From positions 1 through 48,272 of IMG/VR virus record IMGVR_UViG_3300037628_000098: a DNA stretch of 48,272 nucleotides; one strand, 5' to 3'. This DNA is from a virus. Of the stretch, positions 2,895-44,084 are shown piece after piece (position 1 is the first letter of the stretch; each line of letters begins with the position of its first letter). Position numbers and translations under genes: made by a program. Under the pieces are notes generated by a model. The model was given only the letters and a program-made list of their open reading frames with translations. It did not search any database and had not been told where the DNA came from.

Positions 2895-3161
2895 TTAATA
2901 GGAACGCATAAATATTGTAATATTTTTATCATAGGTATAATTATATTCAGGTCTACTAGGGCCACTATTATACAATATTAGCATAGTGAGTTGTATTATT
3001 TTTACTACATGTACGTGGCGTAAACGTATCCGGGAAATATGTCTACAATAGCACGATATTCGTACATGTCAGGATTATCCTATACAGGGTATAAACTATT
3101 TTCAGGAAAATGACAACAATAGTAACTATTTTCAAAATATTATAAGATTTTTCTGGCAATA

Positions 3162-3212
3162 GTGAACAATTTGGGAAGGTCGTGGGTATTATATAGAGGG
3201 GGTATGTTTTTT
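3162..3212 (+). promoter_or_regulatory. Conserved 48-bp phage control element, copy 1
   Basis: This copy carries GAACAATTTGGGAAGGTCGT, ten variable bases, then TAGAGGGGGTATGTTTTT. The same two blocks with the same spacing occur on the minus strand at 43999-44050. Each copy lies upstream of one of the two large operons, within about 30-120 bases of its first gene and in the same orientation. It is not a standard sigma-70 promoter by spacing. I infer a phage-specific promoter or activator/antitermination site. Confidence 0.7.
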
Positions 3213-4582: not shown

Positions 4583-4673
4583 CCATTATCACGATCTGTT
4601 AGCCTTAAAGAAAGCTAGAGGATACGATGTCAAACCCAAGTACAAACAGCCCAAAAGGAAAAAGGTGCAGTAA
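4539..4673 (+). CDS. Possible small basic overlapping protein, 44 aa
   Basis: A frame overlapping the 3' end of the preceding gene by 44 bases and the start of the HNH gene by 47 bases. The product is strongly basic at its C-terminus (K-P-K-Y-K-Q-P-K-R-K-K) and has a W-x-x-x-Y-H core. The ribosome binding site is weak (GCGGA). The HNH gene at 4627 may have landed on its 3' end. Its reality is uncertain. Confidence 0.35.
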   Translation: MKIISKAETLKKWHSHYHDLLALKKARGYDVKPKYKQPKRKKVQ

Positions 4674-5115
4674 GTGTTTCTATTTGCTACCTGCTACTTC
4701 AAAGTTCTTTGGGAAAGAGAAGCGTAATAACAGTGGCCTCGCTGCCCGGTGCAGAACATGCTCAAGTGCAGCAGTCTTGGTATGCCATAGAACAGAAAGT
4801 GGTAAGGTCAAGGCTAGAGCCACTGTTGATAAGTATCAGGCTACCATACGGGGCCACCTCAATAGGGCTTACCACAACATAATTGCTAGGTGTGAAAACC
4901 CTAAAGCCAGAGCTTACAAGAGTTACGGCGGCAAAGGTATTAAGTGTATGTTCAAATCAGCTGAAGCGTTCTATGACTATGTTACAAAAGTGTTGTGCAT
5001 TGATCCACGTGGTTTAGTTTGCCACAGACCAGATAGCACTGGGCACTACGAACCTAATAATATTGAGTATTTAACTGAAACAGATCATAAGGAGTTTCAC
5101 TATGGAACAGCCTGA
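4627..5115 (+). CDS. HNH homing-type endonuclease with N-terminal zinc ribbon, 162 aa
   Basis: Free-standing HNH endonuclease of the family repeated across this genome. An N-terminal zinc ribbon carries CSKC (C14/C17) and a second CxxC about 26 residues later. The C-terminal half has the DPRG...CHR...GHYEPNNIEY...DH...H pattern that forms the His-Asn-His metal site. Such proteins nick or cut double-stranded DNA and spread their own gene. GAGGATAC precedes the ATG at 4627. Its 3' end overlaps the next gene by 14 bases and includes AAGGAG, that gene's ribosome binding site. Confidence 0.85.
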   Translation: MSNPSTNSPKGKRCSKCFYLLPATSKFFGKEKRNNSGLAARCRTCSSAAVLVCHRTESGKVKARATVDKYQATIRGHLNRAYHNIIARCENPKARAYKSYGGKGIKCMFKSAEAFYDYVTKVLCIDPRGLVCHRPDSTGHYEPNNIEYLTETDHKEFHYGTA

Positions 5116-27867: not shown

Positions 27868-28020
27868 ATGAACACAAAAGAAAAAACATTGCTCACTAAG
27901 ATTGACACTAAGCTTGACGAGATTGGTCGCAAACTAGATGGCCATCTTAGCGAGCACTTTAAAATTCGACTGGTGATGTATGCTGGCTTCATCACTCTGG
28001 TCGTTAGCTTTATTCTTTAA
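27868..28020 (+). CDS. Small coiled-coil membrane protein (holin/XhlA-like), 50 aa
   Basis: Polar heptad-type helix (residues 1-30, K-I-D-T-K-L-D-E-I-G-R-K-L-D) followed by one transmembrane helix to the C-terminus (about 33-50). This topology is found in XhlA-type and other small phage membrane proteins linked to lysis. Last gene of the rightward block, 2 bases after the large ejection-type gene. It converges on the leftward block with an 11-bp overlap. The holin function is only a guess. Confidence 0.55.
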   Translation: MNTKEKTLLTKIDTKLDEIGRKLDGHLSEHFKIRLVMYAGFITLVVSFIL

Positions 28021-28309
28021 TCAGCTTGGTAAAATCAGGCTGACCTTCAGGGCAATCATCCCAGTAAATTCTATGCTGGGGTGGTGGCCCTTTTTTTACG
28101 TCCGCTTCGTCCAAGAGCTGCGTGAATAGCGTGGCGGTCCTGAGTAATTCTTTTACCTGACCAATTTCTATTACTCTGCTGTTGCCACCATTGCACCAGA
28201 TGATATTATTCTGTAGCTCTGCCAAGTTGCTCAAGGCTTCAAGGTCATCAGTGAAATTAAGACTGATCGTAAGCTCAGTGGCTATAATATATACAGTTGT
28301 GATATTCAT
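28010..28309 (-). CDS. Hypothetical protein, 99 aa
   Basis: Last gene of the leftward replication block. ATG 28309 follows AAGGAGATTGGCTA and overlaps the previous stop (TAATG); a longer in-frame start lies inside the preceding gene. Soluble mixed composition, no motif recognised. Confidence 0.65.
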   Translation of the reverse strand: MNITTVYIIATELTISLNFTDDLEALSNLAELQNNIIWCNGGNSRVIEIGQVKELLRTATLFTQLLDEADVKKGPPPQHRIYWDDCPEGQPDFTKLIKE

Positions 28310-28536
28310 TAGCCAATCTCCTTCAAGAAATGGTCCAGCCATATTTGTGTGCAGTACCTACGTTTAATACGCACTACGGTTTTAAGCTTAATCCTTTTAC
28401 CATGCTGCCCGATCAATCCTTTTCTGTGCCACACTAACAATGTATTAGGCAACCGCTTTATGTTGGTGAGTTCATAGATATAATCGCAGCACTTTTGCAG
28501 CGTCCAGTAATCAGTCGTCTTCGGCTTGAAGTTCAT
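28309..28536 (-). CDS. Excisionase/MerR-like winged-HTH protein, 75 aa
   Basis: Small basic DNA-binding protein. The pattern W-T-L-Q-K-C-C-D-Y-I, then L-L-V-W-H-R-K-G-L-I-G, a basic stretch and R-R-Y-C-T-Q-I-W-L-D-H-F-L is that of the excisionase/DUF1580-like helix-turn-helix domains. The start is ATG 28536 after GGAG; a TTG two codons earlier is an alternative. With no integrase in the genome it is more likely a regulator than a recombination directionality factor. Confidence 0.6.
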   Translation of the reverse strand: MNFKPKTTDYWTLQKCCDYIYELTNIKRLPNTLLVWHRKGLIGQHGKRIKLKTVVRIKRRYCTQIWLDHFLKEIG

Positions 28537-28897
28537 TTTCAATCTCCATTCTCTTTAGTTCAGCATACAGCTCCGGGTTATCCCCTGCGTAAAGTTTCTT
28601 GTCAGGGTACTTGTCACCGCACCAGCCCGCCCAGCAAACTTCTTCTATTAAGTCTAAGACGTAGCCAGCTGGACCTCTTTCCAGAGTGCTAACGCTTACG
28701 CCTATGTAAACGTCCCGCTTTGTCCGGGTGGTCACTTTAACGATCCAACCTTTAGCTATTTTGTTCGGACCTATTCTAGTGAACGCACCCAGATTTTCTA
28801 CTGGTCCATCGTTGATCGCCCTTTTAATATAAACATATACGATTCTGCGGACGACGAATGAAAGTAACTCTTCCCTTTTGTCAATCTTTGTATCCAT
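28511..28897 (-). CDS. Hypothetical protein, 128 aa
   Basis: Basic N-terminal helix, central beta region (W-I-V-K-V-T-T-R-T-K-R-D-V-Y-I-G-V), acidic C-terminus. Directly downstream of the primase-helicase, with GGGGAGATAGT as ribosome binding site. No recognised domain. Confidence 0.65.
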   Translation of the reverse strand: MDTKIDKREELLSFVVRRIVYVYIKRAINDGPVENLGAFTRIGPNKIAKGWIVKVTTRTKRDVYIGVSVSTLERGPAGYVLDLIEEVCWAGWCGDKYPDKKLYAGDNPELYAELKRMEIENELQAEDD

Positions 28898-28898
28898 A

Positions 28899-31217
28899 CT
28901 ATCTCCCCATGTATGCTTGCTTAGCCCACTTAGCTACCCTGATACCCCGGTACATTCGGTGTCTTCTGCCTTCAATTTGAATCTGTTTAGTTCCAACATT
29001 GGGGCACGCCTGAGTAACACGCCTACCGAATACGGTCATCTTATTGGGTTCGACTCTTGCTTCATCACACCAGCCTACCCATACGTCATAAAGTTCCTGC
29101 TTGCTGACATGATAATCTTCTTCGCTGTCACCGGGTGGCATCATCTCGCAGCAGTCAGTCAAGAAAGCTGACATGGGCTGTACGAGTTCGACCATCTGCC
29201 TGTGTTGTGCTTTAGAGTTCTCTGGTTCTAAGAACGATCCGCATTGATGCAGTAAACGTAACCCATCAAGAGCGAACTTGATTAGCTTACCGCTGCTAGC
29301 TTCTTTGCTTAGCTGTGCTTTTAATCCTCTGTTCTCTTTGCCCACGTAGGAATTTGGGAACTCAAGGATATTCATTCTCGGACCTAACGCATTTGCACTG
29401 TCTGGTATATCAGGAAGTTCATTCATTGCAGCTGTAAATCTACAGGTCAAGTATGTACTACCTAATTCTCCACGGTGCATACGCCTGATACCTACCGGAT
29501 CGCCACCAATTATTTGCAGCAATTTCTCTAAGGCTTTATGTGACTGTGAATGCTTGGGCACTCTGGCATCGCCAAGTATCGCAGACAGTTTACCTACTAA
29601 CGGTTGGTATCCAAACTCTGAGCATAGGTTTTGGAAACTTGTACTAACGCATTGTTCCCGGCCAAGCATACTCATCAAAGCTGTTATCACAGTACCTTTG
29701 CCTGATCGTGGTCGTCCAGTGAATAGCATCATCTTTTCATGGCTCATGTCTGGTACACAATTGTACCCGAACCATTGGGCGAGTAGATCAACACTCATGG
29801 TATCGTTGTTAAAAATCTCATTGACATAAGAACGCCACAGCTTCGAGTCAGCATCCTCGTCAAAATCGTATGGTAAAATATGATTACTAAGTAACGCAGG
29901 TGTAGGATCGTAAAGCACAACCTCACCCTCGATATACTTTTTAACGTCAAGTATTCCATTTTTAAATGGTATGATTTCTGTAACTGGTGGAAACCCACGG
30001 TCTTCTAACCAGCATGGAGCGTCCTGATCCGTGAGGCAAAGTCCGTTAAGGGCATCAGTTATATCAGTGACCTTAGCTCTCGTAGTTTTATACGGTACTA
30101 CTGCTTCGTTAACAATGCAGTTCTTTCCTTCAAGGTGGCGGTAAAGCTCACCACGTACCGAGTCTATGTTAATAAGTTTGTAATGGTTCTCGTCGTACTC
30201 CATCCACTGCCCTTTGTCAACTCGTAACGTAGGCAGTCCATCTTCAAAGTGATACTGCTTGAGCCACGCATTAGCTATGTCAAAAGCGATGTCACTTGAC
30301 AACGTATCTTGTCCCTCTTCAACTACACCGTGAGCTTTAACCCACTGCATGAATTGATCTTTAGTTAGCTTGGCGGTAACGTACCACTCACGAAAATCTT
30401 TATACTCAGGTGGCGGCAGAACCATAATTACACTGGTGCATACTCTTATAGACGCCTCAGCCACACGCTTCATTCCACGCTGTCCTACTTCTTTTGCTTT
30501 AGGATCAGTATCATTATCTCCGATCACTATTGCTCTTACCTTACGTCCACGTAGAACGGCGGGAATTTCTTTGACTCCACAAAGTGCAGTCGTTCTTCCG
30601 ATTGTTTCAAAGCCAAGATCGAAACCCGTTGCTGTGTCGCTAAGGCCCTCTGTGAGTAAGACAACTTCACCTGTTTCGCCTTCTGCTTCGCCAGCCACGG
30701 CAGTCTTGGAAAAGTCACCCGACTCCTTGAGGATATGTAAATATCCGCTGTTTTCAATGTGCTTAACTGAACCCTCTTCGGTGACTCCGCAGATTGCAGC
30801 GGCGGGGTCGTTAGGGTTATCTTCTGATACCATGCACCAGTCATTACGTCCGCATATCGGGCAATTAACTCCTGCGTCAGTGAGCCTAATGAAGCTTCCT
30901 TTATATGATCCCACATTATCTGCTGTAGTGGCGTTAGCTTCAGGGTCGTAGTAGAGGCCATGCTTTGAACCTGTGACAAAACATTTTGATCCATTGATAA
31001 ATCTCCTGTTAATTCCTACCAGCTGTCCCTTACCAGTTCTGACAGGGAAGGTGTAGGTACGGTCGCCGTCACCGGGACGACAACCGATACCTAACCTCAA
31101 TAGTGAATCTATACTAACACCCAGCTCTTCAGCTAACGGCTGAACGATGGCCTTGTCAAATATATTTTCTCGGCATAGATCATGCAATTGCTCTAATTGT
31201 TGTTTGTTAGTCTTCAC
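28899..31217 (-). CDS. DNA primase-helicase (TOPRIM + SF3/D5-like), 772 aa
   Basis: Zinc ribbon with C119, C122, C128 and C143; TOPRIM domain with E190 (L-L-T-E-G) and DND at 234-236; D5-type N-domain ending in P-F-K-N-G-I-L-D-V (about 417-425); SF3-type ATPase with Walker A GRPRSGKGT at 501-509. Synthesises primers and unwinds the fork. The gene starts with GTG at 31217 after AAGGGAA. It lies 16 bases after the SSB-like gene, in the replication block. Confidence 0.9.
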   Translation of the reverse strand: MKTNKQQLEQLHDLCRENIFDKAIVQPLAEELGVSIDSLLRLGIGCRPGDGDRTYTFPVRTGKGQLVGINRRFINGSKCFVTGSKHGLYYDPEANATTADNVGSYKGSFIRLTDAGVNCPICGRNDWCMVSEDNPNDPAAAICGVTEEGSVKHIENSGYLHILKESGDFSKTAVAGEAEGETGEVVLLTEGLSDTATGFDLGFETIGRTTALCGVKEIPAVLRGRKVRAIVIGDNDTDPKAKEVGQRGMKRVAEASIRVCTSVIMVLPPPEYKDFREWYVTAKLTKDQFMQWVKAHGVVEEGQDTLSSDIAFDIANAWLKQYHFEDGLPTLRVDKGQWMEYDENHYKLINIDSVRGELYRHLEGKNCIVNEAVVPYKTTRAKVTDITDALNGLCLTDQDAPCWLEDRGFPPVTEIIPFKNGILDVKKYIEGEVVLYDPTPALLSNHILPYDFDEDADSKLWRSYVNEIFNNDTMSVDLLAQWFGYNCVPDMSHEKMMLFTGRPRSGKGTVITALMSMLGREQCVSTSFQNLCSEFGYQPLVGKLSAILGDARVPKHSQSHKALEKLLQIIGGDPVGIRRMHRGELGSTYLTCRFTAAMNELPDIPDSANALGPRMNILEFPNSYVGKENRGLKAQLSKEASSGKLIKFALDGLRLLHQCGSFLEPENSKAQHRQMVELVQPMSAFLTDCCEMMPPGDSEEDYHVSKQELYDVWVGWCDEARVEPNKMTVFGRRVTQACPNVGTKQIQIEGRRHRMYRGIRVAKWAKQAYMGR

Positions 31218-31233
31218 TATTAAATTCCCTTAA

Positions 31234-32172
31234 TTAAAATGTAGCAGTAGCATCAAGCACTGCGGCACGAACTGTACCCCACTCTTCCCCGGAGATGTCC
31301 TTATGCTCTTTGCCGGGTGCAATGGCTTTGATCTGTTTCAACCATTCAGCAGCCAGTTCAGAGTCAGACGTATTCGTTGACTTCAACTCATTAACATCTG
31401 CCCATGCCTCTTGCTTAGTGCAAGGTCCGCTGGTTTCGAGCACATCTACTTCCTCTGTTCCATGCTCTTCTTCCGCAGGTGCTTCAGGCAGTGCAGAAGG
31501 TGGCTCACTCTTAGCAGCTTTTTCTTCCGCAGCTTTAGCAGCAGCAGCCTTGGAAGCTTTCGTCGGACGACCAGCCCTAGTTTTAGGCTTAGTCTCTTTA
31601 GGCTCTTCTACAGGTACGTCATTAGGCCCTTTTTTAGGCTCTTCCGCAGGTGCAGCAGCAGCTTTTCTACGACCACCAGCCGGAGCTTTCTCAGCCTTGA
31701 CCGTACTGGTGAGGAACTCAGCGAACTTAGCATCAAGGTCTTTGATGCCCTTGTCATCGAGCTTGCGAACAGTGCCACCGGGTTCAGCATCGTAAAGATC
31801 AATCCACGAAACCTGAACTTTGGTCTTACCATCGTAAGTATCCTCTTCATTACGCCACTGAATCTTCATACCAACAAGGTCCATAGCAGCAAGTGAAGCG
31901 AACGAGTCACCTTCCCAGCCAGTGATCTTCTTAACCTGATCGCCGCTGAGGGTACAACCCTTCTTACCGAACAGAACATTATAACTAACGATAGAACGAT
32001 CCTTATCCTCGTTACTGTCCCACTCGAACTCACTCCAATCGAACCACTTCTTTTCTTCTTCATCGTACATCTGATCGGCATGTACCTTTGCTACAAGTTG
32101 TGGGTATCCACCACTAGTAACAGCAACACCAGCATCAACGATGGTCCCTCTAAAATTTCCAAGTGCCTTCAT
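31234..32172 (-). CDS. Putative ssDNA-binding/annealing accessory protein, 312 aa
   Basis: Residues 1-155 form a beta-rich, OB-like domain with an S-G-D-Q-V-K-K-I-T-G-W-E-G-D-S-F pattern and Y-D-G-K-T-K-V-Q-V-S-W-I-D. This resembles single-strand-binding-like proteins that accompany Sak4 ATPases in phage. Residues 160-255 are a Lys/Ala/Pro/Glu linker, and 255-312 form a helical acidic domain. It lies between the Sak4-like gene and the primase-helicase. Function inferred from context and pattern. Confidence 0.55.
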   Translation of the reverse strand: MKALGNFRGTIVDAGVAVTSGGYPQLVAKVHADQMYDEEEKKWFDWSEFEWDSNEDKDRSIVSYNVLFGKKGCTLSGDQVKKITGWEGDSFASLAAMDLVGMKIQWRNEEDTYDGKTKVQVSWIDLYDAEPGGTVRKLDDKGIKDLDAKFAEFLTSTVKAEKAPAGGRRKAAAAPAEEPKKGPNDVPVEEPKETKPKTRAGRPTKASKAAAAKAAEEKAAKSEPPSALPEAPAEEEHGTEEVDVLETSGPCTKQEAWADVNELKSTNTSDSELAAEWLKQIKAIAPGKEHKDISGEEWGTVRAAVLDATATF

Positions 32173-32522
32173 TACTTACTCCTGTTCTTATTAAAAATAG
32201 ACTTAAATTTTGTAGCCAACGCTTGCAACTTGCTGACTTTACGAGGTTTATTCAGTAGGCTAACAAAATGCTCTTTGAGAAAGTTCTGAATCTTATTAGC
32301 TTTCTTAATGTTTTCAGTGTCACCATGACAATGCTTGTACTTAATCGGAACCTGCTTCGTCACGATTGCAACTGTGTCACCGTCAGCAGCTACGCTAAAA
32401 ACGTCTCTCATAGCAGCTGTATCAGCAACCTCTTTAGTAGCACCACAGGGACAAGGTTCGTTACGTCCGATCTTCCTACTCTTCCAGCGGTATGTCGGGC
32501 ACAGTAGATTTATTCTCTGCAT
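32172..32522 (-). CDS. SEC-C-like zinc protein with split motif, 116 aa
   Basis: The halves of a SEC-C zinc motif (GRNEPCPCG at 19-27, KYKHCHG at 61-67) are present but separated by 33 residues, whereas they are normally adjacent. C24, C26, C65 and H66 could still bind one zinc. The C-terminus is a basic helix. The start is ATG 32522 after GGGAGACGAAG, giving a 47-base overlap with the Sak4-like gene. SEC-C modules act in protein-protein or RNA binding; the role here is unknown. Confidence 0.6.
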   Translation of the reverse strand: MQRINLLCPTYRWKSRKIGRNEPCPCGATKEVADTAAMRDVFSVAADGDTVAIVTKQVPIKYKHCHGDTENIKKANKIQNFLKEHFVSLLNKPRKVSKLQALATKFKSIFNKNRSK

Positions 32523-33387
32523 CTTCGTCTCCCTCTGGGAATATGTATTGGAATATAGAGTCGTCATCAATAGCATCGAAAGTAACTACTGGTGGCACTG
32601 ACTCTCCGCTAGTTAGCACACGTGACTTCGCCCTAAAGTGAAGTTCACCTTGCGTAAAGATTGCTCTGGTCGTATCGCCGCTGGCCTTCTTGTCCTTGAC
32701 AACCGTAGATGTATAATCAATGAACAGAACATGATCGGCCCATTCACGATACAGCTCTTCAACGGAAGGTGTACCCTTACTGCCCTGATATAATCTCGGA
32801 CAGTAGCAGAGATAATCTTCACCTGCTGCGTTAGGGATCATGCGACTCGTGCACTGAGCGATCAGGATTACGTTCACTCCTGTTCTAATCAAAGCATCAA
32901 CGTCTTGCAAGAACAATTTCATGGTGTCGTACAAGTGACGATAACCTTTACCAAAGCCATAACCTTCAATGCTCTTTACAGTGCCACCCTTTTCATGCGG
33001 GATAGTCTCGAACATATACTGATGGCTCATGTCTTCCAGCTTAGTTACCGTGTCAACGATAACAGTTTCGTGATCGGCAAACAAATCATGCTGCTGGATA
33101 ACTGCTCTGGTGTCACCGAAAGTTATTACATCGTTGACTTGCATAATCTTGTCCCCAGTGTAAGGGTCACGAAGGTTAGCAGTGCCATCATCCAATGGAA
33201 TAAAGATTGGGCTTGGTGCGAGTGCAGCCAAAGTAGACTTACCCATCCCTGAGCCAGCATATAAAAGAAACTTCTTACCATGATTTCCACCACTCGTACC
33301 TTTTGTAAACTTCTTAGCTGGCTTAGCCGGAGCAGCCGCAACTCCACTACCCGCTTTCGGTGGTCCCGATATTCTTGGTTTTCGCAT
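32476..33387 (-). CDS. Sak4-like RecA-fold ATPase (single-strand annealing/recombination), 303 aa
   Basis: Basic Ala/Pro/Lys-rich N-terminus (1-38), then Walker A GSGMGKST (45-52) and Walker B TVIVD (108-112), a RecA-core layout typical of Sak4/AAA_24 phage recombinases. Later residues (about 165-190) contain D-A-L-I-R-T-G-V-N-V-I-L-I-A-Q, the sensor-like strand. Acts with an SSB-like partner to anneal or pair ssDNA. Starts at 33387 after GGAG, overlapping its neighbour by 41 bases. Confidence 0.8.
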   Translation of the reverse strand: MRKPRISGPPKAGSGVAAAPAKPAKKFTKGTSGGNHGKKFLLYAGSGMGKSTLAALAPSPIFIPLDDGTANLRDPYTGDKIMQVNDVITFGDTRAVIQQHDLFADHETVIVDTVTKLEDMSHQYMFETIPHEKGGTVKSIEGYGFGKGYRHLYDTMKLFLQDVDALIRTGVNVILIAQCTSRMIPNAAGEDYLCYCPRLYQGSKGTPSVEELYREWADHVLFIDYTSTVVKDKKASGDTTRAIFTQGELHFRAKSRVLTSGESVPPVVTFDAIDDDSIFQYIFPEGDEDAENKSTVPDIPLEE

Positions 33388-33688
33388 CAGACTTCTCCGT
33401 TTCTAAGAGCATAATTAGTGAATCAATTTTTTCCTTGGCCTCGTGGCACAGTAGTCGCATCTTCCGCAGCACAAGTGCCTTGAAAGAGTCGTTGCCCAGC
33501 TGGGTTTGGAACGCAACTTCTTTCATCTCCTTATCACTGATGCACAGCCAGTGTAACGCATCAAAGGTCAACTGGTAAGCACCGTCTAAAATCTCCGGGC
33601 ACTTGTCAAAGTGAAAGAACTGTTCGTCTTCACCGAGCTTACCCTGCATCAAAAGGAACTCGTGCTTAATCCGTTGTTCTGGACTCAT
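33347..33688 (-). CDS. Hypothetical protein, 113 aa
   Basis: Mainly helical, acidic at both ends, no motif. The start has GGAGG at 6 bases. It sits between the coiled-coil protein gene and the Sak4-like gene with overlaps on both sides. Possibly a recombination accessory protein. Confidence 0.65.
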   Translation of the reverse strand: MSPEQRIKHEFLLMQGKLGEDEQFFHFDKCPEILDGAYQLTFDALHWLCISDKEMKEVAFQTQLGNDSFKALVLRKMRLLCHEAKEKIDSLIMLLETEKSDAKTKNIGTTESG

Positions 33689-34058
33689 TAGCTGCCTCCT
33701 TCTCCAATTCTACATACATGCGAACCACGTCGAACAGGATTACCCTGAGCTTTTCAGACAACGCACACATTTTAGTTTCAGGATCGACAGTATGCCCATT
33801 CTCGATAAGCCGCTGGCGGTACGTGTACTCTTCTTCAAACTTGCCCTTGTAGTACCGCACGTCTGCTTCCAGTTTACCGTAGTCAACCATGTCCTTATCG
33901 TGGTGTTCCGCAAGGGTAATAAAGTCATCGTCCTGCTGATTCATTTTAACTTCTAACACCTCCAAGCGATTAGCTTGGTCAGTTATAATTCTAAACTGGT
34001 CAGCTATTCTCTGGTTCTTCGTGTTGAAGAGTGTCTTAAGATCATCAATCAGTTTCAT
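33666..34058 (-). CDS. Coiled-coil protein, 130 aa
   Basis: Heptad-rich helix from about residues 15 to 85 with acidic and basic partners. The start is ATG 34058, with GGAG 8 bases upstream and a 14-base overlap with the nuclease gene. A longer frame that begins at 34187 would add a hydrophobic N-terminus, but that part lies wholly inside the upstream gene and is unlikely to be used. Function unknown. Confidence 0.65.
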   Translation of the reverse strand: MKLIDDLKTLFNTKNQRIADQFRIITDQANRLEVLEVKMNQQDDDFITLAEHHDKDMVDYGKLEADVRYYKGKFEEEYTYRQRLIENGHTVDPETKMCALSEKLRVILFDVVRMYVELEKEAANESRTTD

Positions 34059-35262
34059 TTGCGTCTCCGTCTTTACGTTTGTAGATGCACTTGAATCCTT
34101 CGGGGGGATTACTAGGGTCAAGTTCAACACCGTTATAGCAACTACTAATATAAGGGCATTTCCAAGTAGCTTCACACTGTGCTTCATTATGCCACCACCT
34201 ATCTTCCTTGTTCAAAAATTGAACCGTTCTATAAATGTTAATTAACTCTTGCTCGAATCGTTCAATCTCTGAATCAGTACGAGCTATGATACGCCTTGCG
34301 TAATGCTTCTCCGGTGCGGCACAGATGTCTTGGAATAATCTAGCACCGTACATCTCTGCTGTTTCTCTGATCTGGAACGTACCTTCTTTAGCACCAGCCT
34401 TAGTCTCCGCTGTTACACGGTTGACAGTGATAGTGCCAAGATTATCTTCAATGACATCGAACTTGTCAGTCATGTATTCACCAGTGGCAACAAACTTTTT
34501 GCTTTCACCCTGCGTTAGCATCTTAGCTTTGATGGTAGGTTTTTTCCACACATCATACCGGGCCTCGCAGATCAGCGGGTCAGTAGCTTTGATCCCGTAG
34601 ATTTCTAGTGCTCCAACTTTCTGAAGCTCACGAGCTGCGTAAACGTAAAGCAAAGTTTGTGTGTCAAGGTTAAGCTTAGCCCAGTAAGTAGAGTCACTAT
34701 CAATAGGTGCACTGGTAGACTTATGCTCGTCAACAAAGACGATACCAGAATCACGATGCCTTCGCAACTTATCAATCATGCCCACGACTACCACACCCGG
34801 CAACGCTTTTCCGCTTGGCCCGTACAGTGGCAGCTCGAACTTGACTTCTACAGCTATAACCTCGCTATCATCGTCTTTCCAGTAGTGCCTATATCCATTG
34901 TAGGCTATCCAGATTTTCTCTTTCTCTACTGCCCAGTCTTCATCTGATTTGCTAGATGGTTTAATTTCATAAGCATCGTTTAAGTCTGCTGTGATGCGTT
35001 TCATTTGGCCTTCAATAACCTTCAGCGTGCCATTACACAAGCTGCACTGAGAATCAGGCCCATTCAGCGAGCACGAGGGGCATGGTGACGTTGTATCCAT
35101 GTCAGCCACTTCTAGTACCTTATGCCAGTTCGTCCCCATACGGAGCGTGTCAGCCTCTTCTATGATCCTGATTCCCAGTACATATTGAACGTAGCAGCGG
35201 AAGGCACATGCTTTGAAAGCCGCTATAAATGATGCGGAAAGTTTCCATGTGCGTTTCACCAT
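34045..35262 (-). CDS. Cas4/RecB-like PD-(D/E)XK nuclease with zinc insertion, 405 aa
   Basis: Nuclease core with D164 (V-G-M-I-D) and E179-x-K181 (V-D-E-H-K). Cys residues near the N-terminus (C19, C23) and a C-terminal C-x(5)-C-x(5)-C set could form an Fe-S cluster as in Cas4 and AddB. A second zinc module (C61, C64, C73, C76) is inserted near the start. Probably a 5'-3' exonuclease that supplies ssDNA for the Sak4/SSB pair encoded just downstream. Confidence 0.8.
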   Translation of the reverse strand: MVKRTWKLSASFIAAFKACAFRCYVQYVLGIRIIEEADTLRMGTNWHKVLEVADMDTTSPCPSCSLNGPDSQCSLCNGTLKVIEGQMKRITADLNDAYEIKPSSKSDEDWAVEKEKIWIAYNGYRHYWKDDDSEVIAVEVKFELPLYGPSGKALPGVVVVGMIDKLRRHRDSGIVFVDEHKSTSAPIDSDSTYWAKLNLDTQTLLYVYAARELQKVGALEIYGIKATDPLICEARYDVWKKPTIKAKMLTQGESKKFVATGEYMTDKFDVIEDNLGTITVNRVTAETKAGAKEGTFQIRETAEMYGARLFQDICAAPEKHYARRIIARTDSEIERFEQELINIYRTVQFLNKEDRWWHNEAQCEATWKCPYISSCYNGVELDPSNPPEGFKCIYKRKDGDANETD

Positions 35263-35528
35263 TATGCTGTAAGCTCCTTCAGTTTATTGCGAAGGTTCAC
35301 AGCAGCATCAGACTGCTGATCCAGCTCGTCCTGCTCGAAGGTAAGCTCGTCAATGCGGTCACTAAGACTCGCCTTAGCGTCTTCAAGTTCTCTGATGCCA
35401 GCGTCCAGTTGACCAACCATGCCACCGAACAAATTAGCTACACCTGATACTTGTTTTTGCCCACGCTTACCAGCCATGTAAGCCTTGATAAGTTTGAGGG
35501 CCTGTTTAAAAATACTTTTGTAATTCAT
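35262..35528 (-). CDS. Coiled-coil protein, 88 aa
   Basis: Basic N-terminal 25 residues, then a long heptad repeat (about 38-88). Overlaps both neighbours by 1-4 bases. No family recognised. Confidence 0.65.
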   Translation of the reverse strand: MNYKSIFKQALKLIKAYMAGKRGQKQVSGVANLFGGMVGQLDAGIRELEDAKASLSDRIDELTFEQDELDQQSDAAVNLRNKLKELTA

Positions 35529-36139
35529 AGTGTTCCTACCGATCTGAACTCTTTACCAAGTTCTTTAAAAATAGTATACGCCTGTCTACGTGGCGACATC
35601 ATTCTATGCTTGGCAAAGTTCTTGCACTTCACCATAAATTTATCTGCAAACTCCGAGCAGATGTTACGTTTGTTTTTCTTTACAAAGTGCCGGGCAATCG
35701 GGATGAATGTCTTGATGTCCTCTTTGGAATAGCCAGTGTTCGTAGCTACTTCTTGAGCTGCCCACTTCAAGGCAAGCCTGAAGTCTTCATGCGTGTCAGC
35801 CTCTAACTCTACAAAATCCCAGCGGGTCTTGTCGAAGATAACTTCTGTCACTGGGCGAAAAGTAGTTCCGTCCTCATCATCTCGCATGGTTGACGTATAG
35901 CAGTGTCCGTTCCACCAGTCAATTTCACGAGGTTCAATCGGACTATTGTAATGCGGAACCCATATTTCAACATGAGCATAGCACCACTTGATGAACCGCT
36001 TCACTTCTTTAAGGTTAAACTTCTCTCTCCACATTACGTATGGAAGATTGACCAGCATAGTCCATGTGTCAATCGTGTTATCTACCAAGCTGTCATCGAA
36101 CCACTTGGCCTTATACATTATCACTCTATACTTTTTCAT
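35525..36139 (-). CDS. Putative permuted papain-like (NlpC/P60-type) protein, 204 aa
   Basis: The order is His first (Y-A-H-V-E-I-W at about 54-60), then a W-N-G-H-C-Y-T segment, and a late Cys in N-I-C-S-E-F (about 160-165), as in circularly permuted NlpC/P60 folds. Members include peptidoglycan peptidases and lipid-acting acyltransferases. It lies after two membrane-protein genes and is the best, though weak, candidate for a cell-wall enzyme. Start ATG 36139 after GGAG. Confidence 0.45.
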   Translation of the reverse strand: MKKYRVIMYKAKWFDDSLVDNTIDTWTMLVNLPYVMWREKFNLKEVKRFIKWCYAHVEIWVPHYNSPIEPREIDWWNGHCYTSTMRDDEDGTTFRPVTEVIFDKTRWDFVELEADTHEDFRLALKWAAQEVATNTGYSKEDIKTFIPIARHFVKKNKRNICSEFADKFMVKCKNFAKHRMMSPRRQAYTIFKELGKEFRSVGTL

Positions 36140-36431
36140 CTTTATTCTCCGCTAAAATAGGGTCAGCCTTGGCCCCAATAAGTTTTTCTATCCACATGGA
36201 AATTTTAGCCCCAGTCACCAGCCCGGCAATAGACCCCAGAACGTAAGGTATAAACAATGCACTGTCCATGTCAGATCGCACCAGTTCCCTGAATGTCAGG
36301 AACCATATACTATTGCTAAACAGAGAAGCTATAACATGATATTTCACGTTGTCCCGGTTGCGTGCTCTGGATACAATAGCAAACGATATGCTCTGAATAT
36401 ATGCCAGCACCATAATTTTTAAAAGTATCAT
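36126..36431 (-). CDS. Small multi-span membrane protein (holin candidate), 101 aa
   Basis: Three hydrophobic segments (about 1-20, 33-47 and 58-80) and a charged C-terminal tail. A similar membrane protein with an S-R-A-R-N motif at the end of helix one is common in phages, in my recollection. It may be the holin, given the neighbouring papain-like gene, but no direct evidence shows this. Start overlaps the previous stop (ATGA). Confidence 0.6.
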   Translation of the reverse strand: MILLKIMVLAYIQSISFAIVSRARNRDNVKYHVIASLFSNSIWFLTFRELVRSDMDSALFIPYVLGSIAGLVTGAKISMWIEKLIGAKADPILAENKDEKV

Positions 36432-36913
36432 AGCAAATCCCTTATATCTTTCCGTTTCTTTAACAGTGGCAAGAACATTGTCACCAGTTCTGGTACACCA
36501 TGAATCAAAAGGTACACCCCGTTATTAAGTCTTACTTTAGCACATCGCTTCTGTTGTCCTTCGCTCCACGATCCACCCCGGCCACGCTTCAGCTCAAGCT
36601 CAAAGTGTTTACCATTAGGTAAGCAACCGATAATATCACCAGCATCTTTAATGCCGTAGCGATACTTCCTGCCATTGCCTCTAATATCACCTGTTCCTGT
36701 GTTGTTACGATCATAAAGTATCCGGTGCTTACCGAGCCACGTGGAAACTTCTTTCATTACTACATCTTCCTTGACATTATCGCAGGGCACAGTCGGTTTA
36801 GTTCCTACTGATCCGTCCTTGCGACCTTTGGGTTTACCGTGATGAATAATATCAACGATACCTTTGCCAAGTCTGTGCATCTTCTGGGCCTTAGTTAATC
36901 TAGCGATGGACAC
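36428..36913 (-). CDS. VRR-NUC-type nuclease (Holliday junction resolvase-like), 161 aa
   Basis: PD-(D/E)XK fold of the VRR-NUC family: E55 in a helix, then D-A-G-D-I-I-G (D93) and E-L-E-L-K (E107, K109), with Q120/Q121 following. Such proteins resolve branched DNA or act as flap nucleases in phage replication. The N-terminal 45 residues are basic. Ribosome binding site AAAAGGGGG precedes the ATG at 36913. Confidence 0.8.
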   Translation of the reverse strand: MSIARLTKAQKMHRLGKGIVDIIHHGKPKGRKDGSVGTKPTVPCDNVKEDVVMKEVSTWLGKHRILYDRNNTGTGDIRGNGRKYRYGIKDAGDIIGCLPNGKHFELELKRGRGGSWSEGQQKRCAKVRLNNGVYLLIHGVPELVTMFLPLLKKRKDIRDLL

Positions 36914-37032
36914 CCCCTTTTAAACGGTGGACACCAATCGTCAGGTGACATCTGTGCTCTTGTCACCCGCATTAGCTTACACACAAGGGCATGATGCCTC
37001 TTACGCCGTTTCTTTTTCTGTCTCTTATTCAT
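36895..37032 (-). CDS. Small basic protein, 45 aa
   Basis: Arg/Lys-rich N-terminus followed by a Cys/Pro/Trp-containing tail. It overlaps the 3' end of the 61-residue gene before it by 8 bases, and the VRR-NUC start by 19 bases. It is short but neatly nested, which supports it. Function unknown. Confidence 0.45.
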   Translation of the reverse strand: MNKRQKKKRRKRHHALVCKLMRVTRAQMSPDDWCPPFKRGCPSLD

Positions 37033-37210
37033 CAATATCCTCAGCCCAATAGCTTACCTTATCACCAATGGTCCTACCGAGTCTCGTGTTACCCAGCCCC
37101 TCCAAGGTATCCGCAATCATAGCTGCTAAGCCAATAAAGCATACAACTGTTAACGCTACTGTTACTAATATTCCTGTTACCACTGCTACTTTTTTCATAA
37201 AAGCTTTCAT
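37025..37210 (-). CDS. Small membrane protein, 61 aa
   Basis: Hydrophobic helix at about residues 8-35, then a charged tail. The first Met (37210) follows TAAGGTGAGCT; a second Met at codon 5 is possible. Signal-anchor topology. Function unknown. Confidence 0.6.
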   Translation of the reverse strand: MKAFMKKVAVVTGILVTVALTVVCFIGLAAMIADTLEGLGNTRLGRTIGDKVSYWAEDIDE

Positions 37211-37250
37211 AGCTCACCTTACTTAGTTTAAAAGTTATTTATCTATCTTA

Positions 37251-37421
37251 CTACTGACCTGTCGTATCAGGGTTCTTAATAAACGAAAGCTCAACACTTG
37301 TTCTGAACAAGTCCCTCTCGTGTGCCTTTAGCCTATTAGCCATCCTAATAAGAATTTCTGGGTAATTATCTTTGTACTTCTCTCTTATATGCTCAAGTAG
37401 CTTGCTGTCTCTTGTATCCAT
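37251..37421 (-). CDS. Hypothetical protein, 56 aa
   Basis: Helical, basic/acidic mixed protein. The start follows AAGGTGAACT, 8 bases after the DNA polymerase stop. The coding structure is clean. Its stop position is given to within one base. No family recognised. Confidence 0.55.
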   Translation of the reverse strand: MDTRDSKLLEHIREKYKDNYPEILIRMANRLKAHERDLFRTSVELSFIKNPDTTGQ

Positions 37422-37429
37422 AGTTCACC

Positions 37430-39409
37430 TTACTTAGTATAATATTGACTTATGAACCCTTCAGCTCCGAGAGGCATACCCTCAGCCCAATCAGGATTAG
37501 TACACATGATCTCGTACATCAAAGCAAGATCATCTTCAGCTGTGTCTTCGTCAACTACAGCCACGATCTCATCATAACAATGAGTAACTACTGGTAGTCC
37601 CTCGTCTTCACACCACAGCACCCATGTCATTAGCAGATCACGAGCAGCTGATTGAATAATATTTTCTACTAGTAGCGAACCATACAGCGTACCCCACTGC
37701 CATTTGATTTTACCACCTCTGCCGATAGAAGCATGGCGGTAGTAAAGAACTCTACCTGATGGTAGCTTGATGCAGACAGTACCATTTATATTATAGAACG
37801 TCAGCATAACTTGGTCAAGTATTTTATACTCAACAGACTCATTTGGAAATCTGATTACCAGTTTAAAGTAACCTTCGATCAGCTTCCAGAACTTAGGAAC
37901 CTTAGTGTATGTGGTTCGGTATGTCTTAATTAGTTTGCTTATAAATCTAAAATCGTAAGTGCCATCATCAAAGAGTGGCCTAAGATCAGGATTCTTTCTA
38001 CAGTTCTGATAAAATCTTTCATCACCCATACCATATCCGCAGCCAAGGATAGCATCTTTGCCAAAGCCACGCATTAAATCCATGTCGTGCACCCACTGTA
38101 TCATACTTTCATTTATGTCTTCACGCTCAGCATCAGTAGGTTTTCTTACGTCTCGTCCGAATAAGATCGAAGCGAAGTCACTGTAAATATCATCACCGTT
38201 CTCGAAGCCAATAACTAAATCAGACTGACCAACCATCCACATTTCTAACCTGCACTCGATCTGTGCCGAGTCACATACTGCTAACGTCTTACCCGGTGGT
38301 GCAACCAGCAATCTTCTGACCGTCGATATTAGTGGGTGCGTTCCCTGTCCGGTCCGGCCTTTACCGCCCAGATTTAAGAGATTGATTTTCTCTCCCCCGG
38401 TTGGTCGTCCAGTGTGACAGCCATGATAGTTCAGTGGTACACGCAGCATTCCGTAAGACGCATGAGCCTGAGCGATCATACTTTTTATACGCTTGATGTG
38501 GTTCGGCCATGACTTAATAGCAATGCGAGCCTCACAAAATTTTCTTACTGGTTCTAACCTATGAACGAGTAGTTCCTGCATCGCCTCGTCATCTTTGGCA
38601 AATGCAGGAACCAACTCTTTCTTCCCTTGCTTCATGGGAACCTTCTCACCTTCTGGAAGTAAAGCCTGAAGAGCAGGGATGATCGCTATTCTACTACCAA
38701 GTAGTTTCTTGGTCTGCCCGCAAGCATCAATTATATCATTCAGGATAACTTCCATGTTGGGTAAAAGTTCATCGGCCAATGCAAAGTCGAACTGTAGCCT
38801 TGGTTCCAGATACAGTCCTAGTGTGTGGCGAGCTAGGGGTAGTTCTAGTTCAGGCCACGTTAAAAAATCCATCAAAATTTTAAAGAGCTTGCACTGTTTA
38901 TTTATATCGTTCAGGCAATACTCTTCGAGTTTTTCTTTTACGTCTGGTGTCATGTCCTTAAGGTGAAGACCTTTGAACTGCATGGTGTCACCTTTACTCC
39001 CGATCTTAAAGTGCTCGCATAGAGAGGCGAGGTTGTGTCGCATCTTCGAGTCGTAGTGCCGGGCCAAATCGTCAATGTCTACAATGTAAGGGGGGATTAT
39101 ATTAAATCGTTCTTGTAAAACTGTTGCATCATAACGTGCGTTCTTAAAGTTACAGGTTATGCGTTCAAGGTTGTCGCCGTATCTGGTTTGTAAACCTTTT
39201 ATCGCCCCCGCTACATCATGTGAAAAACACGCATGGAAATTAGGGGAAACAGCCCAGCCCACGCCAGTAAATTCAAACCGCTTGTCAACGATGTATTCTA
39301 TGGTAGACATTTTGGTGAGGCTATACTCCGTATCGAAGTAGTTCTCAAAGTCAATCATCAGTACATCTTGTGGAAAGTTTGCAGCGTCTAATTTATTGGC
39401 ATAGGTCAT
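37430..39409 (-). CDS. DNA polymerase, family A, 659 aa
   Basis: Proofreading exonuclease motifs: D20/E22 (M-I-D-F-E), N-A-R-Y-D (90-94) and Y164-x-x-x-D168. Polymerase motif A D380 (C-D-S-A-Q-I-E-C-R), motif B R447...K451...L455...Y459-G460, motif C HCYDE (610-614). This is a compact phage-type Pol I without a 5' nuclease domain. The residue corresponding to E. coli Phe762 is Leu. It copies the phage genome with the primase-helicase. Confidence 0.95.
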   Translation of the reverse strand: MTYANKLDAANFPQDVLMIDFENYFDTEYSLTKMSTIEYIVDKRFEFTGVGWAVSPNFHACFSHDVAGAIKGLQTRYGDNLERITCNFKNARYDATVLQERFNIIPPYIVDIDDLARHYDSKMRHNLASLCEHFKIGSKGDTMQFKGLHLKDMTPDVKEKLEEYCLNDINKQCKLFKILMDFLTWPELELPLARHTLGLYLEPRLQFDFALADELLPNMEVILNDIIDACGQTKKLLGSRIAIIPALQALLPEGEKVPMKQGKKELVPAFAKDDEAMQELLVHRLEPVRKFCEARIAIKSWPNHIKRIKSMIAQAHASYGMLRVPLNYHGCHTGRPTGGEKINLLNLGGKGRTGQGTHPLISTVRRLLVAPPGKTLAVCDSAQIECRLEMWMVGQSDLVIGFENGDDIYSDFASILFGRDVRKPTDAEREDINESMIQWVHDMDLMRGFGKDAILGCGYGMGDERFYQNCRKNPDLRPLFDDGTYDFRFISKLIKTYRTTYTKVPKFWKLIEGYFKLVIRFPNESVEYKILDQVMLTFYNINGTVCIKLPSGRVLYYRHASIGRGGKIKWQWGTLYGSLLVENIIQSAARDLLMTWVLWCEDEGLPVVTHCYDEIVAVVDEDTAEDDLALMYEIMCTNPDWAEGMPLGAEGFISQYYTK

Positions 39410-39434
39410 GGCCTGTATTCCTTAATCAGTTTCG

Positions 39435-40487
39435 TTAACTAACCACAGCCTCTTGGCTATCGCCGTCATCATCAGTTTTTTCTTCTTCAGGCATAGGCGG
39501 TACATCATTTACTTCACCACCGTTCTCATCGGCTAGCGAACCGGGAACATTACCTTCGAGATTATCTTCCCGTGCTGCTATTACAACGTCAACGTTTTCA
39601 TCGCTAAGCTCTGATCTAGTTGGCTCAGTGTTCTGGCCTTCTAGTAATTCTTCAACTTCAGCGTGATCGTCAGCTAGCTCAATAGCATCAGTCTGGTTAG
39701 TCTGACAACCCGGATTGTCACAGTTGTCACAGTCACCTTCGCAGTTGTCAGCGTCTTCAGCAGATACCTCATCGCTCCCACTGCCTCCGCCACCAGTCTT
39801 CGGTGTATCTTCGCTTTCGTGTGAATCCTGCTGTTCTGCCAAGTCCCCGGCTGACTGCTTCCCCAGCTCTTCAGTACCAGCCTCCGCTGTTTCGTCGGAC
39901 TGGGTAGAGGGTGAGTCTTGTGAAGTGGAGTCGTCTGAACCCAGTTCCGCAGCCATCAGCTTTTTTCCTTCAGCTTCGTCTGCTCTTGCCTTCTGCTCCT
40001 GCTCTTCCCGCTGCTCAGCTTCGGCAAGTTCTTTCTTGGCGTCTTCAGCTTCGATCTTGTCAAGATTTTCTTTGCTCATCAATGAGAAGTGAAGGTTCGA
40101 TACAGGATACACGCCAAAGTTATCAATGCTGTCCTTTGATATTTCTTCGAGCACATTTAGTACGTCTTCAAATTCTTCGATGAGCTTAAGGTCAAGTATC
40201 TTTTTATCGTCGATCCTGTCCCAATACGTTTGCACCACCATGCTAATCATGGTCAGCAAGATATGTTCCTTGTTCGTCTTGTGCGAGGTAAAGGTCTTGC
40301 TGAAGAACGGAAGTGAACCGCAGTCACGATCAGTTCTTTTCAGGTGCGGTATAAAATTATGAATCTTATCCGCTGTGTTCTGCCGTGATCCACTGAACAT
40401 CTGGAACAACAACATTAGCATAGTTTTAACTCGTGCATTAAGATTTGCTTTCGCTTTGGCAGCGTCTATGTCACCAAATTTTGTCAT
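39435..40487 (-). CDS. Acidic protein with Cys cluster, 350 aa
   Basis: Three parts: a globular helical domain (1-130), a charged coiled coil (140-180), and a disordered Asp/Glu/Ser-rich tail (181-350) carrying one Cys cluster (C249, C253, C256, C261) that could bind a metal. Directly upstream of the DNA polymerase. No family recognised; DNA-mimic or polymerase-associated roles are guesses. Confidence 0.65.
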   Translation of the reverse strand: MTKFGDIDAAKAKANLNARVKTMLMLLFQMFSGSRQNTADKIHNFIPHLKRTDRDCGSLPFFSKTFTSHKTNKEHILLTMISMVVQTYWDRIDDKKILDLKLIEEFEDVLNVLEEISKDSIDNFGVYPVSNLHFSLMSKENLDKIEAEDAKKELAEAEQREEQEQKARADEAEGKKLMAAELGSDDSTSQDSPSTQSDETAEAGTEELGKQSAGDLAEQQDSHESEDTPKTGGGGSGSDEVSAEDADNCEGDCDNCDNPGCQTNQTDAIELADDHAEVEELLEGQNTEPTRSELSDENVDVVIAAREDNLEGNVPGSLADENGGEVNDVPPMPEEEKTDDDGDSQEAVVS

Positions 40488-40516
40488 TATAAATCTCCTA
40501 AAAATTTCATTTAATT

Positions 40517-41248
40517 TTAATTTTTGAACAAGTCTTTCCTGTAGTCAACTGTCTCAAAATTTGAGTGATGGTACAGCTCACCCCTGCCACATGGCATTAT
40601 TTCGTGGTAAGGAATACCATCTTTAATAATTCCGCAGCCAAGGATCGGTCTTTGCTTCATGTGCTTACCATAGGCAAACTGATAGGCTCTAACGTCGATA
40701 CCACAACCAACGTCCATACCGAAGATACGGGTGCGAGGGTTAGCGATCCAGCTTATGCCAGCTCTGCTATGGTTGTGGCCCATGACCACTGACATCAGCA
40801 TTTTCTTCGTGCAGTTCGCAGCGGGATACATTCCACCGTTACCTGTGCCATGAAAATAATAAACATCATCAATAATAAACTCATGTGCCCACTTCCAGCC
40901 TTTAGTCTTCCATACTTCATTGAAGTCACGAAGATACTTGGACGGTATGTTAACTGACTCTGCAAGCCGAATCACACGCTCATCATGGTTGCCAATGCAC
41001 ACTTTCGCCCGAGGAAAAGCATTATGCCAGCGTAAAATAGCACGCTTGGTCAAGATGTATTCATCAGTAGGGCCGGGGCACTCAGGGTTAGCAGCATGAA
41101 AACTAATAGCTTGCATATCTGCTATGTCACCCATGATAACTACATCATCGCAGTCCCACTCAGCGTACAAGTCCTGACAAAACTGAAGGTATCCGGGGTG
41201 GGCCACTGGCTCATGCGGATCACCGATTGCTAAAATGTTTTTACTCAT
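40517..41248 (-). CDS. Calcineurin-like metallophosphoesterase, 243 aa
   Basis: Complete metal-site set: G-D-P-H (9-12), G-D (40-41), G-N-H-D-E (86-90), H133, and G-H-N-H (157-160). ATG 41248 is chosen because AAGGGAA lies before it and it starts 8 bases inside the preceding gene; an upstream extension overlapping that gene is rejected. Substrate unknown; phage relatives are thought to act on nucleic acids or nucleotides. Confidence 0.85.
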   Translation of the reverse strand: MSKNILAIGDPHEPVAHPGYLQFCQDLYAEWDCDDVVIMGDIADMQAISFHAANPECPGPTDEYILTKRAILRWHNAFPRAKVCIGNHDERVIRLAESVNIPSKYLRDFNEVWKTKGWKWAHEFIIDDVYYFHGTGNGGMYPAANCTKKMLMSVVMGHNHSRAGISWIANPRTRIFGMDVGCGIDVRAYQFAYGKHMKQRPILGCGIIKDGIPYHEIMPCGRGELYHHSNFETVDYRKDLFKN

Positions 41249-41672
41249 AAATTCCCTTAGCCTCCAAGTACGCTTCCATTGTATCTTTGAAGTCATCCAA
41301 GCCCTCAAAAATGAGCACTGGAATATCACACTTGCGGGCATGTACCCATTCAGTATAACAGCCTTCAACTGGCGGGCCGAACGGTGCATATATCAGCAAC
41401 GCATCATTGTAGTCTTCTTCAATAATCTTGCAGTCAATGTGAAGTATCTGCTGCACCGTAAGCATACCATAACGGTATGACCGATTCACAAATGCTTCGT
41501 GCTCTGCTGGCACGTAAAGTTCAAAGTCAACTTCACGATAGTTAGTCGCCATGTAAAGCCTGATCTGCTCAGCTAGTATCAATGCTGCATTGCAGTTGCA
41601 CTCCATGTCATGCTGCGTAGCCTTATCTTTAAGTGCACCTCTTATCGGATGACTCATGTAAGCTTTAATCAT
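41241..41672 (-). CDS. Nucleoside 2-deoxyribosyltransferase-like protein, 143 aa
   Basis: Rossmann-like fold typical of the nucleoside deoxyribosyltransferase/DUF4406 superfamily: start Y-M-S-H-P-I-R-G, an N-A-A-L-hydrophobic helix, V-P-A-E-H, D-hydrophobic-L-hydrophobic strand, and G-x-x-x-E-x-x-H-A-R-K-x-x-I-P-V. Members break or swap the glycosidic bond of deoxynucleosides or 5'-nucleotides. It overlaps its HNH neighbour by 4 bases (ATGA-type). Exact substrate unknown. Confidence 0.65.
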   Translation of the reverse strand: MIKAYMSHPIRGALKDKATQHDMECNCNAALILAEQIRLYMATNYREVDFELYVPAEHEAFVNRSYRYGMLTVQQILHIDCKIIEEDYNDALLIYAPFGPPVEGCYTEWVHARKCDIPVLIFEGLDDFKDTMEAYLEAKGIYE

Positions 41673-42085
41673 ACTGCTCTCATTCCTGCATGAATTTTGT
41701 CATGCACTTCTCTGGTAACGAACTCGATGTTTCCCGGTTCGTAGTTACCACTCGTTAATATTCTATGGCAATGTTTTCCACGTGGATCAATCTGAAGTAT
41801 ATACATTACGTAATAGACAAACTCATCAGCTGATTCAAACCCCATAGTTATACCCTGCTTGAAGCAGTACGCATGTCGTGGATCATCTGACTGACCTGAA
41901 CATCTACGGGTTATGTTGCTGAACGCTCGCCTAAGATAACCGGGTATCGAATTACGGTAAGCAGTGTCATTATCTTTTTTACAATTTCTACACTCTGGTC
42001 GTAATCCATCTGATGCCCTGCTACACTTTCCAAAATATTCTTCAGTCGCTTCAAACAATCCACCACAACTAGTACATTGCTTCAA
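41669..42085 (-). CDS. HNH homing-type endonuclease with zinc ribbon, 138 aa
   Basis: Zinc ribbon C4/C7 and C32/C35; active-site pattern D-P-R-G-K-H-C-H-R...N-Y-E-P-G-N-I-E-F-V-T...H-D-K-I-H. The start is TTG at 42085, directly after the TAG of the lipoprotein gene; no ATG is available in frame nearby. The stop overlaps the next gene's ATG by 4 bases. It is inserted without any spacer between neighbours, a sign of precise homing or of selection for coupling. Confidence 0.85.
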   Translation of the reverse strand: MKQCTSCGGLFEATEEYFGKCSRASDGLRPECRNCKKDNDTAYRNSIPGYLRRAFSNITRRCSGQSDDPRHAYCFKQGITMGFESADEFVYYVMYILQIDPRGKHCHRILTSGNYEPGNIEFVTREVHDKIHAGMRAV

Positions 42086-42361
42086 CTACATGCCACCCCG
42101 CCAGAAGTCGATAACAGCTCCGGCTATTCCTTCGGACAACTCTTTGACAAACTTGTCATTCATAGCCCGCTGACCTTCAAGCTCAAGCAGCACACCAGTC
42201 GTCGGACTAGTGATGACCAGCTTACCAATTTCTTGATTGCCAAACCTATGGTAAGAGGTTTTTGTGCCATTTGAGTCTACACGTTCTACACTTGCACAAC
42301 CTGTCAAGGTTAGCATAGCCACCAACGACAACATTATCATAAGTAATTTTATTTTCTTCAT
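42086..42361 (-). CDS. Small lipoprotein, 91 aa
   Basis: Signal peptide with basic start (M-K-K-I-K), hydrophobic core and lipobox L-T-G-C, Cys at about residue 21, followed by a polar mature part of about 70 residues. The start at 42361 follows GGTGGAG. Its first 116 bases overlap the end of the diphosphohydrolase-like gene in another frame. Possible roles include outer spanin and superinfection exclusion; neither is shown. Confidence 0.7.
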   Translation of the reverse strand: MKKIKLLMIMLSLVAMLTLTGCASVERVDSNGTKTSYHRFGNQEIGKLVITSPTTGVLLELEGQRAMNDKFVKELSEGIAGAVIDFWRGGM

Positions 42362-43136: not shown

Positions 43137-43137
43137 C

Positions 43138-43998: not shown

Positions 43999-44050
43999 GA
44001 AAAACATACCCCCTCTACACAGTAACTACGACCTTCCCAAATTGTTCAGT
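43999..44050 (-). promoter_or_regulatory. Conserved 48-bp phage control element, copy 2
   Basis: On the minus strand this carries GAACAATTTGGGAAGGTCGT, a ten-base variable core, and TAGAGGGGGTATGTTTTT, matching the plus-strand element at 3162-3212. It lies about 30 bases before the first gene (ATG 43972) of the leftward replication block, in the same orientation as that block. Confidence 0.7.
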
Positions 44051-44084
44051 AATCGCATGTTTTTCTTGTTATTTTATTAAAGAT

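Follow-up and report, generated by a model that had tools for sequence, protein, structure and literature searches.

A genome-private, paired element as candidate promoter of the replication and virion operons in uncultured phages

Why does a phage genome carry the same short intergenic element exactly twice, once on each strand and each time at the head of one of its large operons? We addressed this question for an uncultured virus (IMG/VR record IMGVR_UViG_3300037628_000098), whose entire analysed stretch of 48,272 nt is here called the window. The record has a 127-bp terminal repeat, which suggests that the window is a complete genome. An earlier sequence-only reading had suggested that the element may be a phage-specific promoter or activator target, possibly recognized by a protein with two helix-turn-helix (HTH) motifs.

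Two exact blocks at the heads of both large operons

The element consists of two blocks, both of which occur as exact copies: block 1 (GAACAATTTGGGAAGGTCGT) at 3164-3183 (+) and 44028-44047 (-), and block 2 (TAGAGGGGGTATGTTTTT) at 3194-3211 (+) and 44000-44017 (-). In both copies the gap between the blocks is 10 bp, and the similarity of the two copies spans 52 bp. No third site for block 1 or block 2 was found in the window at up to three mismatches; dinucleotide shuffles yielded on average 0 matches for block 1 and 0.06 matches for block 2 at the same threshold. Among the two-copy intergenic repeats of the window, this pair is the strongest. The two-block structure with equal spacing is thereby confirmed, although the start originally given for it, 3162, lies 2 bp too early; the blocks had otherwise been located correctly. 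Each copy is also, as had been noted before, co-oriented with and just upstream of one operon, the virion operon on the plus strand and the replication operon on the minus strand. The relevant features of the window are:

3128-3161, plus strand: A/T-rich tract above the virion copy (82% A+T), in a UP-element-like position
3164-3183, plus strand: private box of the virion copy (block 1), with an exact second copy at 44028-44047 only
3190-3202, plus strand: core TATATA-GAGGGGG of the virion copy (family core TATA(A/G)GAGGG), the putative melting and start region
3194-3211, plus strand: block 2 of the virion copy, mostly kept in the close relatives G001, G002 and G003
3315-27865, plus strand: virion operon (SprT-like protein, terminase, portal, capsid, tail, internal protein), headed by the element
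28010-43605, minus strand: regulator and replication operon (two-HTH protein, nucleotide metabolism, DNA polymerase A, primase/helicase), headed by the element
43138-43605, minus strand: gene of a 155-aa tandem-HTH protein, sigma-region-4-like and the candidate reader of the box, with homologs in 13 of 24 records
43607-43972, minus strand: HNH endonuclease gene (PHROG HNH match), directly below the replication copy and before the two-HTH gene, an arrangement seen in the window only
44000-44017, minus strand: block 2 of the replication copy, an exact match to block 2 of the virion copy; the core here reads GTGTA-GAGGGGG
44028-44047, minus strand: private box of the replication copy (block 1), an exact match to the virion copy
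44050-44083, minus strand: A/T-rich tract above the replication copy (79% A+T)

The remainder of the window is occupied by small leftward genes, the putative early genes, which reach 44085 just above the replication copy. No terminator-like site was seen on the minus strand between these genes and the replication copy.

Occurrence in uncultured relatives

A terminase search yielded ten contigs, and a search of viral contigs with a terminase alignment yielded 169, of which 80 were retained; a distant primase alignment was dropped as a search query because its conservation was too low. No close relative turned up among ~50,000 named phage records, in which capsid and regulator searches gave no match and terminase and polymerase searches distant matches only. 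The longest phage records were reassembled from pieces and, for each genome, the DNA above the regulator/DNA-polymerase operon was compared with the DNA above the terminase.

A co-oriented element pair, with one copy at the head of the replication operon and the other upstream of the terminase, was present in 15 of 21 related phage records (the window, G003, G008, G012, G013, G014, G016, G018, G019, G020, G024, G025, G027, G028 and G029). G030 was excluded, its regulator and upstream DNA being identical to those of G025. A clear regulator-virion pair was not seen in the other six records (G011, G015, G017, G021, G023 and G031). In the pair-bearing records, 2.6-5.7 kb separate the virion copy from the terminase below it, and the distance from the replication copy down to the regulator, wherever one was recognized, does not exceed 0.8 kb. 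The genome's own pair was the row maximum in 8 of the 15 regulator-bearing genomes (P ~1.6e-6) and exceeded all 60 shuffles in 10 of the 15, counts that are not independent owing to close kinship among some of the genomes (G024/G025, G014/G019).

Searching the viral contigs for the two exact blocks returned no match, since the box has changed even in close relatives, and searches with the box sequence matched only the already known G002. Lack of conservation in relatives, which the sequence-only reading had named as speaking against it, did not come about. Its remark that the block of small genes is without a copy holds for the window and does not extend to the relatives: G014, G019 and G020 possess a third copy on the early-gene strand, and G017 has one copy on that strand plus one above its regulator.

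Structure of the element

When 35 family elements were aligned on the core, TATA(A/G)GAGGG was common to them, preceded by the private box and, above that, by an A/T-rich tract. Core anchors were set by eye, so that per-column information values are biased upward. A looser core pattern, TA-N1..5-GRGG, was found in 25 of the 35 elements vs 4.5% of random 40-mers. The private box comprises ~20 bp at -33 to -13 from the first G of the core, and its register shifts by only 0-1 bp between the copies of a genome. Box identity is 0.75 within genomes vs 0.37 between genomes (permutation p ~1e-5), the former value being inflated as elements were picked partly by similarity. The stretch from -12 to -1 is not the same in the two window copies. 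The A/T tract, at -68 to -35, has a mean A+T content of 74% in the 35 elements compared with 54% in control upstream regions (p ~1e-15).

The earlier statement that the spacing does not suit a sigma-70 promoter is borne out by the family: pairs of sigma-70 -35/-10 hexamers with 16-18 bp spacing and at least 9 of 12 matches were equally common in the elements (6%) and in shuffles (6%), and the core is without the conserved last T of the sigma-70 -10 hexamer. This absence of sigma-70 pairs above chance is as expected for an activator-dependent promoter. In several relatives GAGG(G) is also spaced from the regulator's ATG as a ribosome-binding site would be. Transcription may thus start at or above GAGG(G); alternatively, the promoter's own mRNA may have almost no leader, GAGG(G) then serving the early read-through mRNA. 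A leader peptide at AGGGGGTATG was rejected, as the window, G002 and G003 do not keep a common reading frame behind the ATG.

G002, a close relative, has promoter flanks that hardly differ from those of the window, but its box is replaced by one of the GAATCGCTATAGTC type, which would amount to a natural specificity-swap experiment. The G002 record is without the part expected to hold its regulator. A short inverted repeat is present within the box of two distant relatives, CCCC-N8-GGGG in G027 (644, 43539) and CCCCAT...CGGG in G029 (36124, 29850). In both genomes, the replication copy is followed first by a gene for a distant relative of the regulator with one HTH in common (hhalign E 1.8e-6). 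The inverted repeat together with a single recognizable HTH suggests a different binding mode in these two phages.

The two-HTH protein as candidate reader

In most relatives no other gene comes between the replication copy and the two-HTH gene, and in 11 genomes the regulator gene starts within ~110 bp below that copy. In G003, no HNH gene exists at the corresponding place, the element is kept, and the start of the two-HTH gene follows the core anchor by 33 bp. The regulator match in G028 is weak only. An AlphaFold2 model of the 155-aa protein is all-helical with two HTHs (mean pLDDT 82), and the best-defined local structure match is sigma region 4 of SigC (2o8x; rmsd 1.0 Å over 43 columns). 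A Foldseek search with the model gave no match at E 0.001 or better. Family libraries returned weak sigma-4 and HTH matches only; matches to the PHROG families "late transcriptional activator" and "CII-like" were weak as well and did not surpass the ones to sigma or generic HTH families. The C-terminal tail of the protein is conserved. Judged by gene position and predicted fold, the two-HTH protein is the best candidate reader of the private box. Box similarity did not correlate significantly with regulator similarity (Mantel rho 0.12, p 0.16; partial 0.07, p 0.28), and we therefore do not claim co-evolution of the two.

Other potential transcription factors were searched for in 20 records. 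Sigma region 2 (PF04542), which was detected in bacterial controls, was not found in any of them, and a phage sigma factor is thus unsupported. A T7-type RNA polymerase (PF00940) was not matched in the same number of records either, vs E 1e-109 for the T7 positive control. By eye, the 113-aa product of the early gene 44554-44895 resembles sigma region 4, a resemblance unsupported by any family match. The early genes of G008 include one (L027 17288-17545) whose 85-aa product clearly matches sigma region 4 (E 4e-11) and lacks region 2.

Proposed mechanism and alternative explanations

Place, orientation, register and an architecture conserved in relatives lend good support to the notion of a phage-specific promoter or activator target. 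We consider it probable that the element is the phage's own middle or late promoter, with one copy heading the regulator and replication operon and the other heading the virion operon, and that the two-HTH protein directs host RNA polymerase there, with feedback on its own operon. The early genes, which lie just above the replication copy and on its strand, would be transcribed first, and read-through from them would provide the first regulator mRNA. The 155-aa protein would then bind the private ~20-bp box, the presumed recognition site in the -35 region, through its two sigma-region-4-like HTH domains and recruit or re-aim the host polymerase, whose alpha subunits might contact the A/T tract. 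DNA melting and transcription start would take place near the TATA(A/G)GAGGG core. The bound regulator would boost its own operon in a positive feedback loop and switch on the virion operon. In this model, promoter activity, start site, binding, timing and activation rather than repression are inferred.

Could the box be read by something else? The same promoter pair might respond to a factor of the host or to a different early protein of the phage, for example the 113-aa one; the two-HTH gene would then merely come first in its operon. The lack of a significant correlation between box and regulator similarity is in line with this possibility, as is the conservation of the 113-aa protein in G003 and G008. 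However, that protein has no match to a DNA-binding family, and the gene that recurs directly below the element is the two-HTH gene and none other, which makes a different reader unlikely. The box might also serve as an operator: bound there, the two-HTH protein would repress both operons, its own included, and so curb transcription that is early or leaky. Autorepressors, too, usually have a box that overlaps the promoter beside the regulator's own gene. Yet the elements contain no sigma-70-like promoter above chance that could be repressed, and the common core and the upstream A/T tract are the parts expected of a promoter in use; we regard autorepression as distinctly unlikely.

T7- and SP6-type promoters have TATAG followed by purines, and the core TATA(A/G)GAGGG recalls their start regions; moreover, a start at the first G of GAGG would suit its ribosome-binding distance. 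A T7-like promoter for a single-subunit phage polymerase was nevertheless rejected and appears extremely improbable to us: no gene for such a polymerase was found by the PF00940 search described above, the -12 to -1 stretch, which is part of the T7-type recognition region, is unlike between the copies, and the box is further upstream, with the A/T tract above it. A function other than a promoter, whether in regulation at the RNA level, in replication or packaging, or as a scar left by mobility, would agree with the presence of only two copies in the window genome and with the HNH gene adjoining one of them. RNA folding of the copies is ordinary (z 0.64 and -0.44) and no Rfam match was obtained, results on which an RNA element or terminator was rejected, and a homing scar was rejected because G003 keeps the element while the HNH gene is absent there. 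Co-orientation in 15 records, third copies and the exchange of the box between fixed flanks fit regulation better, so that a non-promoter role seems very unlikely overall.

If the favoured promoter-activator reading is true, sequence alone would have revealed how a large family of uncultured phages (169 terminase relatives among viral contigs) times the expression of its genes, and would have supplied a natural series of activator-box pairs on which the joint change of a transcription factor and its few sites can be studied. Going further, this widespread family might have evolved an undescribed promoter takeover, a possibility we put forward tentatively and do not regard as probable: a small protein of two sigma-region-4 modules would replace the -35 reading of the host sigma factor, direct polymerase to the TATA-GAGGG core and drive its own gene plus the virion operon, protein and box being re-tuned so fast that close relatives differ.

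Comparison with known phage systems

Lambda CII, Mu Mor/C and P2 Ogr, late activators of temperate phages, are small phage DNA-binding proteins that activate a few operon-head promoters via host polymerase. The proposed system would share these traits with them and differs in the tandem sigma-4-like domains and the conserved C-terminal tail of its candidate activator.

In T4 middle promoters, which work by sigma appropriation, the MotA box replaces the -35 element and lies 12 +/- 1 bp above the -10 region; MotA is a small phage protein with a double-wing fold that serves nearly 60 host-polymerase promoters, above which A/T (UP) elements are possible (PMC2988021). Like these, the element has a phage-specific box in place of the -35 region, a small phage protein as candidate reader, and A/T-rich DNA above. 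Unlike them, its box is genome-private with two or three occurrences, its core TATA(A/G)GAGGG makes no good sigma-70 -10 region (TAtaaT), its candidate reader is modelled as all-helical with two sigma-4-like HTHs instead of a double wing, and this candidate heads an operon that it would control.

Phages phiEco32 and 7-11 possess non-sigma-70 late promoters at operon heads that are read by phage sigma factors, with the consensus GTAAtg-(16)-aCTA in 7-11 and tAATGTAtA in phiEco32; their early and late genes lie on opposite strands, and the late factor is supposedly first made through early read-through (PMC8948821). The layout found here, with early and late genes on opposite strands and non-sigma-70 candidate promoters at operon heads, is similar, as would be the read-through to a late factor, and the window portal weakly matches the portal of SU10, a phiEco32-like phage. 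The differences are the lack of sigma region 2 in the 20 records and the core TATA(A/G)GAGGG below a genome-private box, which is neither the phiEco32 nor the 7-11 consensus. By analogy, the element may work like T4 MotA middle promoters within a program resembling that of 7-11 and phiEco32. It can be assigned to neither of the two systems, as the core sequence, the fold of the protein or the lack of sigma region 2 disagrees with them.

Further features of the genomes

HNH-type genes of a single kind, with the common motif PRG..CHR...GHYE.GN, are scattered over the operons of the window in at least five places (4627-5115, 41669-42085, 43607-43972, 46223-46690 and 47193-47657). At 2835-2960, some 250 bp above the virion copy, lies a noncoding block (TATTTATGCGTTCCTATTAAGGGTCCCATCGGCCCAC...ACAGGGTCAAGGGTAGTACCGGG, minus strand) with strong conservation in five close relatives, for which single-sequence RNA folding indicated nothing unusual. 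Just above the virion copy, at 3094-3134, two exact 11-bp direct repeats (AACTATTTTCA) are located 30 bp apart, and pairs of the similar ACTATTTTCA are present in several relatives. At the early block of G017, three near-identical TTGCAT-16-TATACT repeats with TG upstream (41234, 41728 and 43259, plus strand) look like sigma-70 early promoters.
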